Positions 16,915 to 25,224 of a stretch of DNA of 32,481 nucleotides are shown piece after piece (position 1 is the first letter of the stretch; each line of letters begins with the position of its first letter). The stretch covers positions 1 through 32,481 of the forward strand of contig JAISYB010000012.1 in assembly GCA_031270215.1 (NCBI GenBank). The letters run 5' to 3'. A program made the translations under genes and the position numbers. The stretch comes from Streptococcaceae bacterium (GTDB lineage Bacteria > Bacillota > Bacilli > Lactobacillales > Streptococcaceae). The notes beneath the pieces were generated by a model. It ran no database searches and had not been told where the DNA came from. It saw only the letters and a list, made by a program, of their open reading frames with translations.

Positions 16915-17643
16915 CTATTTTAATGTCCAACCACCGTCTAGCGGAACGATAACTCCCTGAAGGTAGTCCGAGCTTTTACTTGCCAGAAAAAGCGTCAAAT
17001 CAGCAACCTCAGAAGCTTTCCCCCAGCGCTTAAGCGGTGTTAATTCAGCAACCTCTAGAGCAAGCTTGCCATCTCCTGCAAAATCTTTTAGATTCATCGG
17101 TGTTTCTATCGCTCCCGGGGCAATCGCATTGACCTTAATTCCTCTAGCTGCGTAGTCCAGTGCTAATTGCTTAGTAAATCCAGCTAGAGCATGCTTACTG
17201 GTTGTATAGCTTATCCCGCCGCCGCCAGCAACAAGGCTAGCAATCGAGCACATATTTACAATGACTCCTCTCTTCCGCCTGAGCATACTCGGCAAAAAAT
17301 GCTTAGTCGTAACAAAAATACTAACAAGATTGACCGACAAAGTCGCACGAAAATCTGCCAAATCTGTCATCTCCAATGAACGATAATCATCTAAAACGCC
17401 TGCAGTATTGAGCAGAATATCTATTACTTCAATCTGCTCTAGCACCACTTCAAGCGCCTTGGTTTCACGTAAATCTATCTGAAAAAAATGAAAATCGCAG
17501 GAAAGCTCATACGGCATAGGTGCTTTATCTAGTCCATAAACAATTGCGCCTTGGTTCAGAAAAGCCTTAGCCTGTGCCAAACCAATCCCACTTGCACACC
17601 CTGTCACTAAGACACGCGCACCCTTAAATTCTGTAAATATCAT
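16915..17643 (-). CDS. Short-chain dehydrogenase/reductase, FabG-like
   Basis: An NAD(P)-dependent oxidoreductase of 242 residues. The cofactor motif is TGCASGIG (residues 14-21), then LLNTAG (NNAG variant). The catalytic Ser lies in NMCSIAS and the Tyr-Lys pair in YTTSK. The C-terminal LDGGW is typical of classical SDRs. It resembles 3-oxoacyl-ACP reductases, but the acidic LDKAP after strand 2 hints at NAD(H) preference. The true substrate is unknown, and being outside a fab cluster argues against a housekeeping FabG. Its ATG overlaps the stop of the DUF2829 gene (ATGA), so the two are translationally coupled. Confidence 0.85.
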   Translation of the reverse strand: MIFTEFKGARVLVTGCASGIGLAQAKAFLNQGAIVYGLDKAPMPYELSCDFHFFQIDLRETKALEVVLEQIEVIDILLNTAGVLDDYRSLEMTDLADFRATLSVNLVSIFVTTKHFLPSMLRRKRGVIVNMCSIASLVAGGGGISYTTSKHALAGFTKQLALDYAARGIKVNAIAPGAIETPMNLKDFAGDGKLALEVAELTPLKRWGKASEVADLTLFLASKSSDYLQGVIVPLDGGWTLK

Positions 17644-17897
17644 GAATCAGCCTCTTCAGCTTCAACAATCACCCAATCGTCTGCCAGACAATCGCAAACC
17701 GTCGGACTCCACATTGAATAACCCTCTCCGTCGCCTGACACATTAATCAAAAAATAAGGCGTGACAGTTAATTTTTCACCGCTTTCTAGCGTGATTGAAT
17801 CAAAAATTGCGACAAAGTTTTCAGCACCACCCCAGCCTTTCGTCCGAACAGCACGTGCGCCTGCCTTTAATTTTGGTAATACCTCTTCAAAAGTCAT
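17640..17897 (-). CDS. DUF2829 family protein
   Basis: An 85-residue acidic protein. The start TFEEVLPKLKAGARAVRTKGW, then an aromatic-rich middle (PYFLINVSGDGEGYSMWSPTVCDCLADDWVIVE), fits DUF2829. This domain is common in phage and in Lactobacillales genomes and has no established biochemical role to my knowledge. GGAGG gives a good start. It heads the operon with the SDR, YlbF-family and mutS genes and lies about 20 bases after a hairpin terminator that follows metG. Confidence 0.8.
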   Translation of the reverse strand: MTFEEVLPKLKAGARAVRTKGWGGAENFVAIFDSITLESGEKLTVTPYFLINVSGDGEGYSMWSPTVCDCLADDWVIVEAEEADS

Positions 17898-18070: not shown

Positions 18071-20083
<2,013 letters not shown>

Positions 20084-20376: not shown

Positions 20377-20805
20377 TTATTTTTCCTTCATCGCCTGATA
20401 ATCTTGATTTGCCTTGAGCTGTTGATTGACCGCTTTGACTTCTTTTTTGGCAAGCAGAAACAGTAAGACCCAAATCAACAGATAAACCGCCAAAAATTGG
20501 TAGAAAAAAACTAAATAGCTGCCAAACGTCGCAAAAAAATTTCGATTAAAATGATAATTGATTACTAAGGCTGTTCCGCCGGTCAAGAAAAAATGCAGCA
20601 CAAATGCCGATAAATCATTCAATGCTTCAATTTTAAACAAGTAAGTATACAGGGAAATTAGCCCACCTGCAAAGATAACAACCAACAAATCTAACCGAGA
20701 GTAGCTTATCTTTTCTTGATAAAAGAGGGGAACACTCAGCGAAAAAAAGACACTAAAGCCGATACCAATCATTATACGCCGCAATAAACCTTTTAATTTA
20801 ATCAT
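20377..20805 (-). CDS. DUF3021 family membrane protein
   Basis: A 142-residue protein with four predicted membrane helices (about residues 9-27, 36-57, 63-84 and 92-118) and a charged C-terminal tail. Length and topology fit DUF3021. In Lactobacillales and other Firmicutes these proteins are encoded directly after a single-domain LytTR regulator. In Streptococcus mutans analogous membrane partners (HdrM, BrsM) hold their LytTR regulator inactive; applying that to this pair is inference. Its ATG overlaps the LytTR stop by 8 bases (ATGATTAA), so it is translationally coupled. Confidence 0.85.
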   Translation of the reverse strand: MIKLKGLLRRIMIGIGFSVFFSLSVPLFYQEKISYSRLDLLVVIFAGGLISLYTYLFKIEALNDLSAFVLHFFLTGGTALVINYHFNRNFFATFGSYLVFFYQFLAVYLLIWVLLFLLAKKEVKAVNQQLKANQDYQAMKEK

Positions 20806-21250
20806 GATTTAAAATCCTTTCTTTGAGATTTTTCCAATATCTGCGACTAATATGCATGTTCTCGCCACTTTTTAGCCTTGCCGTCATATTACCCGAAAAA
20901 CTACTTTCGACCTTTTCTAGATAAGCTAGGTTGATGATTGTATTTCTTGAAATGCGCATAAACTGATTTATTGGAAGCTCTGCCTCCATTTGACTCAAGG
21001 TTTGCCGAAAAGTAATTGTTTGATCTGTAAGATGTACGGTCGTATAATCTCCAAATACCTCAAGCCACCGCATATCCGCAAACATGATTTGGTAAATCTC
21101 CCCATCAGTCTGTAAGATATAAGAGGCATATTGATCATCAAAGTCAGCAATATAGCTAATCAATCGTTTAACCCCAGCCGTCTTCTCCAACGCTTCGACA
21201 GTAATGCGAAGCTCCTCTTCTGCCGCACTTTTCTTAAATAAAATCTTCAC
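20798..21250 (-). CDS. LytTR-domain transcriptional regulator
   Basis: A 150-residue regulator with no receiver domain. Residues about 45-148 form a LytTR DNA-binding domain: IYQIMFADMRWLEVFGDYTTVHL, then NQFMRISRNTIINLAYLEKVE and a C-terminal MHISRRYWKNLK. The N-terminal 45 residues are a short alpha/beta segment common in this group. The ORF track adds 17 codons. The GTG at 21250 follows AAGGAG by seven bases and is the likely start. Its partner is the overlapping DUF3021 gene. The neighbouring ABC exporter operon carries a LytTR-type direct repeat in its promoter, so this regulator probably controls it. Confidence 0.88.
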   Translation of the reverse strand: MKILFKKSAAEEELRITVEALEKTAGVKRLISYIADFDDQYASYILQTDGEIYQIMFADMRWLEVFGDYTTVHLTDQTITFRQTLSQMEAELPINQFMRISRNTIINLAYLEKVESSFSGNMTARLKSGENMHISRRYWKNLKERILNHD

Positions 21251-21312
21251 CCTAACACTCCTTGATACAGGCAAGAATTTCCTAACCTGCTGTATTTTCA
21301 CTCAATAAATCT

Positions 21313-21341
21313 ATCATGACGAAAGAAGTCCCAAACGTCAA
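21313..21341 (-). promoter_or_regulatory. Promoter of the LytTR-DUF3021 operon
   Basis: Minus strand: -35 TTGACG (21336-21341), 17-base spacer, -10 CATGAT (21313-21318). It gives the regulator pair its own transcription start between the exporter permease and the LytTR gene. Confidence 0.5.
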
Positions 21342-21379
21342 GAACTCATTCACAAATAATAAAATCATTTGTATCAGCT

Positions 21380-22114
21380 TTATTTGAATTTTTTGGGTAA
21401 ATGATTGACAATGACAAAAATCAAACTAGTTATTCCTAAGAATGCAAGAAAATAAAATGCCTGTTCTGTGAATTCATAGCTCGGCTTACTCCAGTTTTCA
21501 ATCAATGAATTACGGAACACCTCAAAAGGAATAAACTTGCTGATTTGTTTAGCTAAACCGGAAAGCTGAAAATTAACAATCGTTCCGGTTAGAATCCCAA
21601 TCCCGAAGTAAACAAACAGCGCAATCCCTTGAACTATTGCAAATCCTTTTGAAAACCAAGCAATTGTAAACGATAGAAAATAAAATGATGTCGTCAAAAA
21701 TAGTGTGCCCGCAATTATATTGATGATCGTAGATAAAGAAGCCGGTGGTAATGGCAGGTAATTAAATAAAACCACCGAATAGATAAAAGTAACAGCTAGA
21801 CATAGACTGGTAATCGAAATAAATTTACTAACCATCTGCTTCGTTTGTGAATAGCCAAATAAAATCAAACGTGTAGATACACCTCTTTCAATGTCTTTAG
21901 CAAATGCGATAGTGAATGGTAAAATAACCAAACCAAGCGGAATCAGCGGCAGACAGGTCGCAAATAAAGTTTTTGCCATTTCTTGATTTTCTAACAATGA
22001 TTTTGTCTTGTGAAAGTTGCCGATGACAATTATTAGCGGAAGTAAACCACCCACAATCATTCCAACGCTGTAACCCAATGTATTTTTCAATTCAAATTTA
22101 ATATAATGTAACAT
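21380..22114 (-). CDS. ABC-2 type exporter permease
   Basis: A 244-residue membrane protein with six hydrophobic segments (near residues 12-32, 47-69, 95-118, 124-149, 157-180 and 218-237). The cytoplasmic loop after the second segment, IERGVSTRLILFGYSQTKQ, resembles the coupling region of ABC-2 permeases. It partners the ATPase encoded 12 bases upstream; two copies of each would make one exporter. The substrate is unknown. ABC pairs next to LytTR regulators often export peptides or confer antimicrobial immunity, but nothing here proves this. Confidence 0.82.
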   Translation of the reverse strand: MLHYIKFELKNTLGYSVGMIVGGLLPLIIVIGNFHKTKSLLENQEMAKTLFATCLPLIPLGLVILPFTIAFAKDIERGVSTRLILFGYSQTKQMVSKFISITSLCLAVTFIYSVVLFNYLPLPPASLSTIINIIAGTLFLTTSFYFLSFTIAWFSKGFAIVQGIALFVYFGIGILTGTIVNFQLSGLAKQISKFIPFEVFRNSLIENWSKPSYEFTEQAFYFLAFLGITSLIFVIVNHLPKKFK

Positions 22115-22126
22115 CTTGATATCTCC

Positions 22127-22975
22127 TTAATTTCGATTATTGTGAACTGCATTAGAATAAATAAGTTCAATGCTTTTATCAGAAATAATAAATTTCTTTC
22201 CTAGCTTCACTAGGCTTTCAGCAAATGATTGCTGCGCTTTTTGACTATCACAAGAAATTGCATAATAGCTACCTTTTTCACTTTTCAATAATTTATACTG
22301 ATTGATGTCAATTCCTGATATATCCTCTAAAATAATTGCTGAATAACCAACATACTTTTTAAACAGATAAGTTATATCGCCAAAATCAACAACTTGACCT
22401 TGGTCAATAATCAATAATTTATTAGCTAACTTTTCAAGTTCATCAAAATAATGCGTGATAAATAACAATGCCGCAGATTTTTCAGAATACCAATCGGATA
22501 TCTTTTTCATTAACTTATTTCTAGTTTCAAAATCTAATCCGGTTGTCATTTCATCAAAACAAGTAACCGGCGTGTCTTGATATAACACCATAATCAAGGT
22601 CAATCTCTGCTTGTGACCACCGGATAAATTTGCATATTTCTTCTTTAGATTTTTTTCAAAATCAAAGAAACGTACTAATTCTTGCAGCTTATGATTGTGT
22701 TTGTAACTCGTTTTAAGCAGTCCCTCAAGAATTGTTTGACAATTAACTACATCAGGATAACTATTCTCTTGCAGATGAACGGCAATTTCACTTGGCTTTT
22801 CAACTGCACCGGTATATCTTACTTGGTCGGTTAAAACCTTCACTAGGGTTGACTTCCCTGCGCCATTTGCTCCAATAATTCCTACAAAATCGCAGCTCTT
22901 AATTTCATATTCTCCTTGCAGATTTAGAGCGGTAAAATCACCATAGCGAACTGTCACATTTTTTAATTTAATCAT
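22127..22975 (-). CDS. ABC exporter ATP-binding protein
   Basis: A 282-residue ATPase. Walker A is GANGAGKST (about residues 35-43), the Q-loop is HLQENSYP, the signature is LSGGHKQRL, Walker B is VTCFDEMTTGLD and the switch His lies in FITHYFDE. The C-terminal 75 residues beyond the nucleotide domain are a variable extension. AGGATG precedes the ATG. The mRNA leader, about 85 bases, contains a small hairpin, TCAAGG-aag-CCTTGA (23024-23038). Upstream lie a TAGAAT -10 and the paired repeats described separately. Confidence 0.92.
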   Translation of the reverse strand: MIKLKNVTVRYGDFTALNLQGEYEIKSCDFVGIIGANGAGKSTLVKVLTDQVRYTGAVEKPSEIAVHLQENSYPDVVNCQTILEGLLKTSYKHNHKLQELVRFFDFEKNLKKKYANLSGGHKQRLTLIMVLYQDTPVTCFDEMTTGLDFETRNKLMKKISDWYSEKSAALLFITHYFDELEKLANKLLIIDQGQVVDFGDITYLFKKYVGYSAIILEDISGIDINQYKLLKSEKGSYYAISCDSQKAQQSFAESLVKLGKKFIISDKSIELIYSNAVHNNRN

Positions 22976-23065
22976 CTTACATCCTTTCTATATTTAAACC
23001 AAACGACCAACTTTCAAAAACACTCAAGGAAGCCTTGAATAAAATCATTACTATCTTTATTTCCT

Positions 23066-23133
23066 ATTCTACCGATTTTTATCGTCAAGCAAAGCAGACT
23101 GCGGCAAGTGGTCTAAAAGTTGCGATAAGTGGT
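23066..23133 (-). promoter_or_regulatory. LytTR-type direct repeats and promoter of the ABC exporter operon
   Basis: Minus strand: ACCACTTATCGC (23122-23133) and ACCACTTGCCGC (23101-23112) are direct repeats with starts exactly 21 bases apart. The -10 TAGAAT (23066-23071) begins 29 bases after the second repeat, and the -35 is poor. Two repeats one double-helix turn pair apart, ahead of an activator-dependent promoter, is the arrangement bound by LytTR regulators such as ComE. The repeats and spacing are seen directly; binding by the nearby LytTR protein is inferred. Confidence 0.6.
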
Positions 23134-23202: not shown

Positions 23203-23276
23203 GCCGCTTTAGCTCAGTTAGGTAGAGCACCACCATGGTAAGGTGGGGGTCACCGGTTCAAGCCCGGTAAGTGGCT
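23203..23276 (+). tRNA. tRNA-Thr (anticodon GGT)
   Basis: A 74-base cloverleaf. Acceptor stem GCCGCTT / AAGTGGC, D-arm GCTC...GAGC, anticodon stem CCACC / GGTGG with loop ATGGTAA (anticodon GGT, reading ACC and ACU), and T-arm ACCGG-TTCAAGC-CCGGT. The CCA end is not encoded. It is a single gene, not part of a tRNA cluster. Confidence 0.95.
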
Positions 23277-24779: not shown

Positions 24780-25224
24780 AATAGAATATAGCCAGCTACA
24801 TATGTTAACTATAGTAGTGGAATTTTAACATCTTTTCCCCATATTGTAAATGAATAGCATAAAAGTTGCCTCGCTTCTCACTAAATCATCTGCTTCACCG
24901 AGCCGTAAAAAGAACATGCGAGAACTGTTTTTATTCAACAAAATCCCTTCAAAAAAGAACCTAGTAAACAGGAAATATTTACTTTTAATTTCTTCGCCGT
25001 CATCAAAGCTGTTTGATTAATTCTCAAGCAATAGTGGCGATTGCCAAGGATTTTCGGACACTGACACTCAGCAATCAAGAACAGCTTCCAGCTTCTGTCC
25101 GTAAAAAACAAAGCTACGAGCGCTTAATATGCGATAAAAAATGAGTATCTGGCTGTTTGTTGAAAAAACTCACAGTCATTATTATCTGACGAAAAATAGG
25201 CGCTATGACATTAGAATAAACAAC
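24780..25224. other. Gene-poor interval between the MFS gene and lacD
   Basis: About 450 bases without a credible gene. The end nearest the MFS gene must hold its promoter; a TTAACA...TCTATT pair is weak. On the plus strand near 25002-25145 a reading frame of about 50 codons stays open without a start. It has no recognised domain, so a decayed gene is possible. A CGGACA / TGTCCG pairing (25044-25105) gives a large imperfect hairpin. Confidence 0.35.

Follow-up and report, generated by a model that had tools for sequence, protein, structure and literature searches.

Gene content of the locus

The window, that is, the entire stretch of DNA analyzed here (32,481 nucleotides of contig JAISYB010000012.1 from the Streptococcaceae bacterium assembly GCA_031270215.1), carries on its minus strand four genes that encode, in this order, an ABC ATPase (22127-22975), an ABC-2 permease (21380-22114), a LytTR regulator that lacks a receiver domain (20798-21250) and a DUF3021 membrane protein (20377-20805). 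The assembly on which the analysis is based comprises 1.86 Mb in 201 contigs, and is fragmented and 84% complete; the genome-wide scans described below therefore have gaps.

Domain searches and comparison with EfiF and EfiG, complemented by a phylogenetic tree in the case of the ATPase, identify the ATPase and the permease as EfiF-like and EfiG-like, respectively, and both belong to the exporter group denoted here type B. The LytTR regulator, a protein of 150 aa for which the start at 21250 is more likely than the alternative GTG start at 21301, contains PF04397 as its only domain (3e-24). Immediately 3' of the regulator gene, with an 8-bp overlap, lies the gene for a small membrane protein of 142 aa (PF11457, 6.9e-15), the presumed inhibitor. 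This organization, an ABC exporter together with a receiver-less LytTR regulator and an overlapping DUF3021 gene, had been recognized in the original prediction, and the open reading frames and the domain searches bear it out in full. The prediction also described the DUF3021 protein as a four-helix one, which is plausible, four hydrophobic segments being found in a relative, but the hydropathy profile of the protein itself clearly delineates only three.

The site is marked by two conserved neighbors identified by synteny, the tRNA-Thr(GGT) gene on the plus strand (23203-23276) and, on the opposite side of the operon, metG on the minus strand (18071-20056). Also near metG, on the minus strand (17640-17897), is a gene for a small Tad2-like protein (PF11195, Thoeris anti-defence 2-like); a gene 83% identical to it lies beside metG in one of the congeners (G002). 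The gene is thus chromosomal, and its location is stable. Elsewhere in the window, on the plus strand (24983-25115), there is a degenerate piece of a LytTR DNA-binding domain (PF04397, 7e-6), interrupted by one in-frame stop. It resembles the terminal part of a response regulator of the ComE/AgrA kind and is not surrounded by an intact gene.

Direct repeats and the predicted promoter

Upstream of the ATPase gene, the minus strand contains two ACCACTT direct repeats, ACCACTTATCGC (23122-23133) and ACCACTTGCCGC (23101-23112), the second starting 21 bp after the first. They are followed by the predicted promoter of the operon (23066-23093), which consists of a weak -35 element, TTTGCT, a 16-bp spacer and the -10 element TAGAAT (23071-23066), the latter beginning 29 bases past the second repeat copy. 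Both the 21-base offset between the repeats and the position of TAGAAT are as originally described. The same motif is found in the tables of sites for LytTR Regulatory Systems (LRS; PMC6193735). In the notation used for the LRS, the site reads ACCACTTAT-12bp-ACCACTTGC, 10 bp, TTTGCT-16bp-TAGAAT, that is, paired 9-bp direct repeats with a spacing in the 11-13 bp range, just 5' of the -35 element of the operon, which is positioned 10 bp past the second 9-bp repeat. The same 10-bp/16-bp layout is present at the corresponding loci of two congeners (L019 and L020).

A genome-wide scan for pairs spaced by 21 bp, the check named along with the original prediction, showed that the repeat pair is the sole match in the 1.86-Mb, 84% complete assembly when up to 3 mismatches are allowed; the reversed pattern, used as a control, has no matches in the same assembly. 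A looser pattern yields one further match in the assembly (C174), with the copies 20 bases apart, which we discarded as a second genomic repeat pair given its wrong spacing and its probable location within a coding sequence. None of 100 dinucleotide-shuffled versions of this upstream sequence reached the best-pair score of the repeats. The leader also contains a terminator-like hairpin (23021-23041, minus strand), which is no more stable than its shuffled counterparts; it was accordingly rejected as an attenuator and is probably not functional.

Assignment to the LRS class and comparison with known systems

The locus is an LRS operon, and its control parts are ordinary for the class. The LRS were described in 2018 by Zou et al. 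as a combination of a LytTR regulator, a downstream membrane inhibitor and direct repeats, and the number of putative LRS operons on record exceeds 4600 (PMC6193735). The repeats are usually spaced by 12 bp and located 10 bp 5' of the -35 element, and two of the published sites, that of an S. pneumoniae LRS (ACCACTTAC-12-ACCACTTGC, 10 bp) and that of BrsR (ACCACTTAT-12bp-ACCGCTTAT), are almost letter-identical to the window site (PMC6193735). In S. mutans, the inhibitor is a DUF3021 or DUF2154 protein in 4 of the 5 cases, ABC genes are present in two of the LRS types, each of the five operons is de-repressed once its membrane protein is lost, and HdrR was demonstrated to work via the repeats; self-activation is named among the hallmarks of the class (PMC6193735). 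By analogy, the DUF3021 protein of the window probably keeps the LytTR regulator inactive at the membrane, and the originally proposed action of this pair on the repeats upstream of the exporter gains support from the parallel with the S. mutans systems. What the original prediction missed, despite citing HdrR and BrsR, are the LRS class itself and the replacement of the exporter discussed below.

The SMU_433/434 and SMU_1070c/1069c LRS types of S. mutans (PMC6193735) share with the window a receiver-less LytTR regulator followed by a small membrane protein, ABC genes within the operon, and 9-bp repeats that are 12 bp apart and about 10 bp 5' of the -35 element. The window differs from these types in that its exporter is EfiFG-like, in place of a DrrAB-like one, its leader is longer, and lytTR is preceded by a 129-bp gap in which the former permease gene has left a scar. 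HdrRM and BrsRM of S. mutans, which combine near-identical repeats with a membrane inhibitor and positive autoregulation, differ from the window in being two-gene operons without an exporter that control bacteriocin and competence genes; a second repeat site that could serve targets of this kind was not found in the assembly (84% complete). Finally, ComE and BlpR also read direct repeats about 21 bp apart through their LytTR domains, but these regulators contain receiver domains and work with histidine kinases, whereas the window operon encodes neither a receiver domain nor a histidine kinase of the ComDE/BlpRH type.

Operon organization and self-activation

LytTR/DUF3021 loci were gathered across the order, and the region before every gene was scanned for the repeats. 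In operons that combine a DrrAB-like (type-A) exporter with LytTR, the 21-bp repeat precedes the first exporter gene in 24 of 28 cases, and a repeat before lytTR was found in none of the 28, in all of which the exporter genes come first. In 15 loci where LytTR is the first gene, the repeat is located before LytTR. The repeats thus precede whichever gene is first and accordingly mark the head of the operon. In the window, no terminator was found between the permease gene and lytTR, and the regulator and inhibitor genes lie on the same strand as the exporter genes; the arrangement is compact in the relatives, with about 16-25 bp separating the permease gene from lytTR in two congeners, compared to 129 bp in the window. 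As judged from the sequence, the four genes would be co-transcribed.

Given that the relatives are compact four-gene operons with the repeats at the head, self-activation is expected, and an autoregulated four-gene operon, in which LytTR would activate its own transcription as in the S. mutans systems, is the simplest reading and very likely the correct one. The upstream regions of the orthologous loci have retained the repeat, in line with the original prediction. Its proposal of a one-target circuit in place of self-activation fares differently, because the repeats head an operon that includes lytTR and the DUF3021 gene, without an intervening terminator. Under that proposal, LytTR would activate the exporter promoter only, and lytTR-DUF3021 would be expressed without feedback from a constitutive promoter of their own in the 129-bp gap. 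Indeed, the gap is longer than its counterparts in the relatives and holds, within the scar, a promoter-like sequence identified by consensus match, TTGACG-17-CATGAT (21341-21313, minus strand), the position of which is kept in both congeners (TTGACG-17-CATTAT), and the DNA of the gap has been kept although the reading frame has not. However, with 9 of 12 consensus matches, the site is within the chance range (p 0.24), the relatives have the repeats at the head of compact operons that include the regulators, self-activation is general among the LRS (PMC6193735), and an internal promoter would add to read-through rather than exclude it. A circuit with the exporter as its one target is thus improbable. 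A basal internal lytTR promoter in the gap is possible, in which case the feedback would remain; as a feature of the locus, this candidate was not retained, its consensus score being not above chance, though its position is conserved.

Apparent replacement of the exporter in place

In both congeners (G001 and G002; loci L019 and L020), a tRNA-Thr(GGT) gene is located upstream of the operon, and in G002, metG, which is 80% identical to that of the window, is located downstream, with one extra gene in between. The congeners have the same site and the same type of regulator but a DrrAB-like (type-A) exporter. The exporter genes of the two congeners are 85-87% identical to each other, whereas the congener ATPase shows 30% identity to that of the window, amounting to general ABC similarity only, and the congener permease has no match to the window permease.

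The phylogenies of the regulators and of the exporter are in conflict. The tree of LytTR and DUF3021 nests the window in the type-A clade, with support of 98/87 for four rows and 100/99 for seven; a topology that unites the regulator pair with type-B carriers is rejected (p 1.6e-4). In the ATPase tree, the window belongs to type B (99/96), and its union with the congeners is rejected (p 1.9e-5). The composition of the genes differs as well, with GC3 values of 0.26 for the ATPase, the lowest in the window, and 0.33 for the permease, compared to the host-like values of 0.38-0.41 for the regulators. A close homolog of the type-B permease is found in only 2 of the 337 genomes of the family, neither congener being among them, and no type-A permease is left in the window's assembly (84% complete). 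A genome from this family search, G514, agrees with S. macacae in both coordinates and identity, which implies that the window belongs to the Streptococcaceae but to a genus other than Streptococcus.

Between the permease gene and lytTR, the segment 21283-21342 (minus strand) is homologous to the 3' end of the type-A permease gene of the congeners, with which it is colinear at approximately the same distance from lytTR. The scores of this scar against the two congeners are 50 and 40, and neither is reached by any of the 3108 control segments from the window, whose maxima are 35 and 36; among unrelated stretches of the relatives, the highest score in this comparison was 42 (L089). The match is detectable at the DNA level only: the translated comparison with the C-terminus of the old permease was not significant, and a protein-level match was rejected. 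The exporter cassette is flanked on both sides by a 12-bp direct repeat, AATGATTTTATT, with the left copy at 23038-23049 and the right copy at 21358-21369 (minus strand). A repeat of at least this length was reached by 15 of 5000 shuffles (~0.3%), and the flanking copies may be a trace of the exchange event. Comparison of the left boundary of the cassette with the leaders of other type-B exporters revealed no convincing homology, and no relatives of the cassette were found in viral contigs. A mobile element was considered as the vehicle and rejected, the 12-bp flanking repeat being suggestive only and the plasmid relatives only ~55% identical.

The conflicting trees, the permease scar, the GC3 of the exporter genes, the rarity of the new permease and the lack of the old one together lead us to conclude, at the level of sequence comparison, that an EfiFG-like pair took the place of the ancestral DrrAB-like exporter within the operon. 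It is this exchange, with the promoter, the regulator and the inhibitor kept, that is new here. A different course of events, in which the whole operon, regulators included, was horizontally replaced at the metG-tRNA-Thr site, the exporter having been exchanged earlier and elsewhere, keeps a small share of the probability, given that divergence is greater for the regulator pair than for metG: the identity to the congeners is ~50% for LytTR and 33-38% for DUF3021, and the neighbor of the pair in the best tree is an operon of G066, which belongs to another family (98/89). Nevertheless, a clade that unites the window regulators with those of the congeners, although not the best tree, is not rejected (p 0.09), the scar matches the permease tail of the congeners and not that of G066, against which the gap scores 24, the chance level, and the GC3 is host-like in the regulators but not in the exporter. 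Whole-operon replacement is, accordingly, unlikely.

EfiFG-like exporters and their relatives

Over the full length, the window ATPase is 55.0% identical to EfiF and the permease is 54.1% identical to EfiG. The window exporter belongs to the same type-B group as EfiFG in the trees, with type A apart at 100/100; its placement inside the group is not firm. The nearest relatives of the exporter come from S. macacae, Leuconostoc species and G201, and plasmid relatives are found on pIVK83 of S. epidermidis and on a related S. saccharolyticus plasmid. Plasmid pIVK83 encodes epifadin, a peptide-polyene antimicrobial, and EfiFG, a candidate exporter, is described as the one potential resistance protein that the epifadin cluster encodes (PMC11310079). 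The EfiFG system differs from the window in that the biosynthetic genes reside on the plasmid and that neither LytTR nor DUF3021 is among the listed neighbor genes (PMC11310079). In the window, the exporter is not associated with peptide-polyene biosynthetic genes, and an NRPS condensation domain was found neither in the assembly (84% complete) nor among the ten neighboring genes scanned. Given that the assembly shows no such domain, protection against compounds made by other organisms appears to be a likelier role of the exporter than export of an own product.

In S. macacae, the exporter pair is located beside a broken polyketide synthase gene. The respective stretch (L085, 5138-8441), in which the EfiFG-like exporter and the broken ketosynthase gene have a transposase-like ORF close by, looks like what is left of a hybrid polyketide cluster. 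In Leuconostoc and related loci, type-B exporter homologs are attached to LytTR/DUF3021 pairs, with the exporter first. In several loci of this type (L047, L048, L086-L088), the second LytTR half-site, ACCGCTTAT, overlaps an intrinsic terminator-like hairpin, ACCGCTTATCACAAAAGCGGTTTTTT, which is located ~100 bp before the exporter. In G201, which forms a long branch in the regulator tree, the LytTR gene comes first, followed by a strong repeat pair (ACCGCTTGT-12-ACCGCTTGT) and then by the DUF3021 gene and an EfiFG-like exporter (L043, 5671-8288); this is possibly a natural circuit without LytTR self-activation. Jointly, the window, the Leuconostoc-type loci and G201 suggest that EfiFG-like exporters were joined to LRS regulators on about three separate occasions.

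Proposed mechanism and implications

As an explanation of the locus as a whole, we favor, with high confidence, a self-amplifying LRS operon in which the exporter was exchanged in place. That the repeats arose by chance or serve a different response regulator of the LytTR type, the DUF3021 pair controlling something else, is very improbable: the genome does encode two other full LytTR proteins (~240 aa), but the repeat pair is single in the assembly, its spacing and position are those of the LRS, and its presence at this site, together with the same operon type, is conserved across genera and families.

The regulatory part of the favored explanation, that is, inhibition by DUF3021, activation via the repeats and feedback, is carried over from the LRS class. 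In the resting state, DUF3021 would hold LytTR inactive at the membrane. An inducing signal, for which membrane stress provoked by an antimicrobial is the likeliest candidate, would relieve the inhibition, and the freed LytTR would bind both repeats and activate the operon. The exporter and both regulators would then rise together, forming a self-amplifying loop that would be reset by DUF3021, and the induced exporter would relieve the membrane stress. In this lineage, the EfiFG-like pair, acquired horizontally, displaced the DrrAB-like genes; the repeat-bearing promoter and both regulatory genes stayed in place, as did the 3' end of the former permease gene. The cargo could perhaps be a competitor's peptide-polyene or another hybrid polyketide/peptide antimicrobial.

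The signals and the physiological roles of the LRS are largely unknown, and it is in this context that the exchange is of value. Exchange of the exporter alone, with promoter, regulator and inhibitor retained, uncouples the signal that is sensed from the cargo that is transported, and suggests that exporters are exchangeable under one sensor. Furthermore, one LRS exporter is now linked to a named class of compounds, the epifadin-like ones, which provides a concrete candidate for both the inducer and the substrate. A broader generalization, which we put forward tentatively and consider less probable than its alternatives, is that the LRS pairs sense membrane damage in general and that exporters are coupled to them and swapped, the EfiFG-like ones with a different regulator or gene order each of the roughly three times. 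If this is the case, the LRS would be an inducible platform for resistance against membrane-active antimicrobials of competitors, in which sensing is independent of the transported compound.
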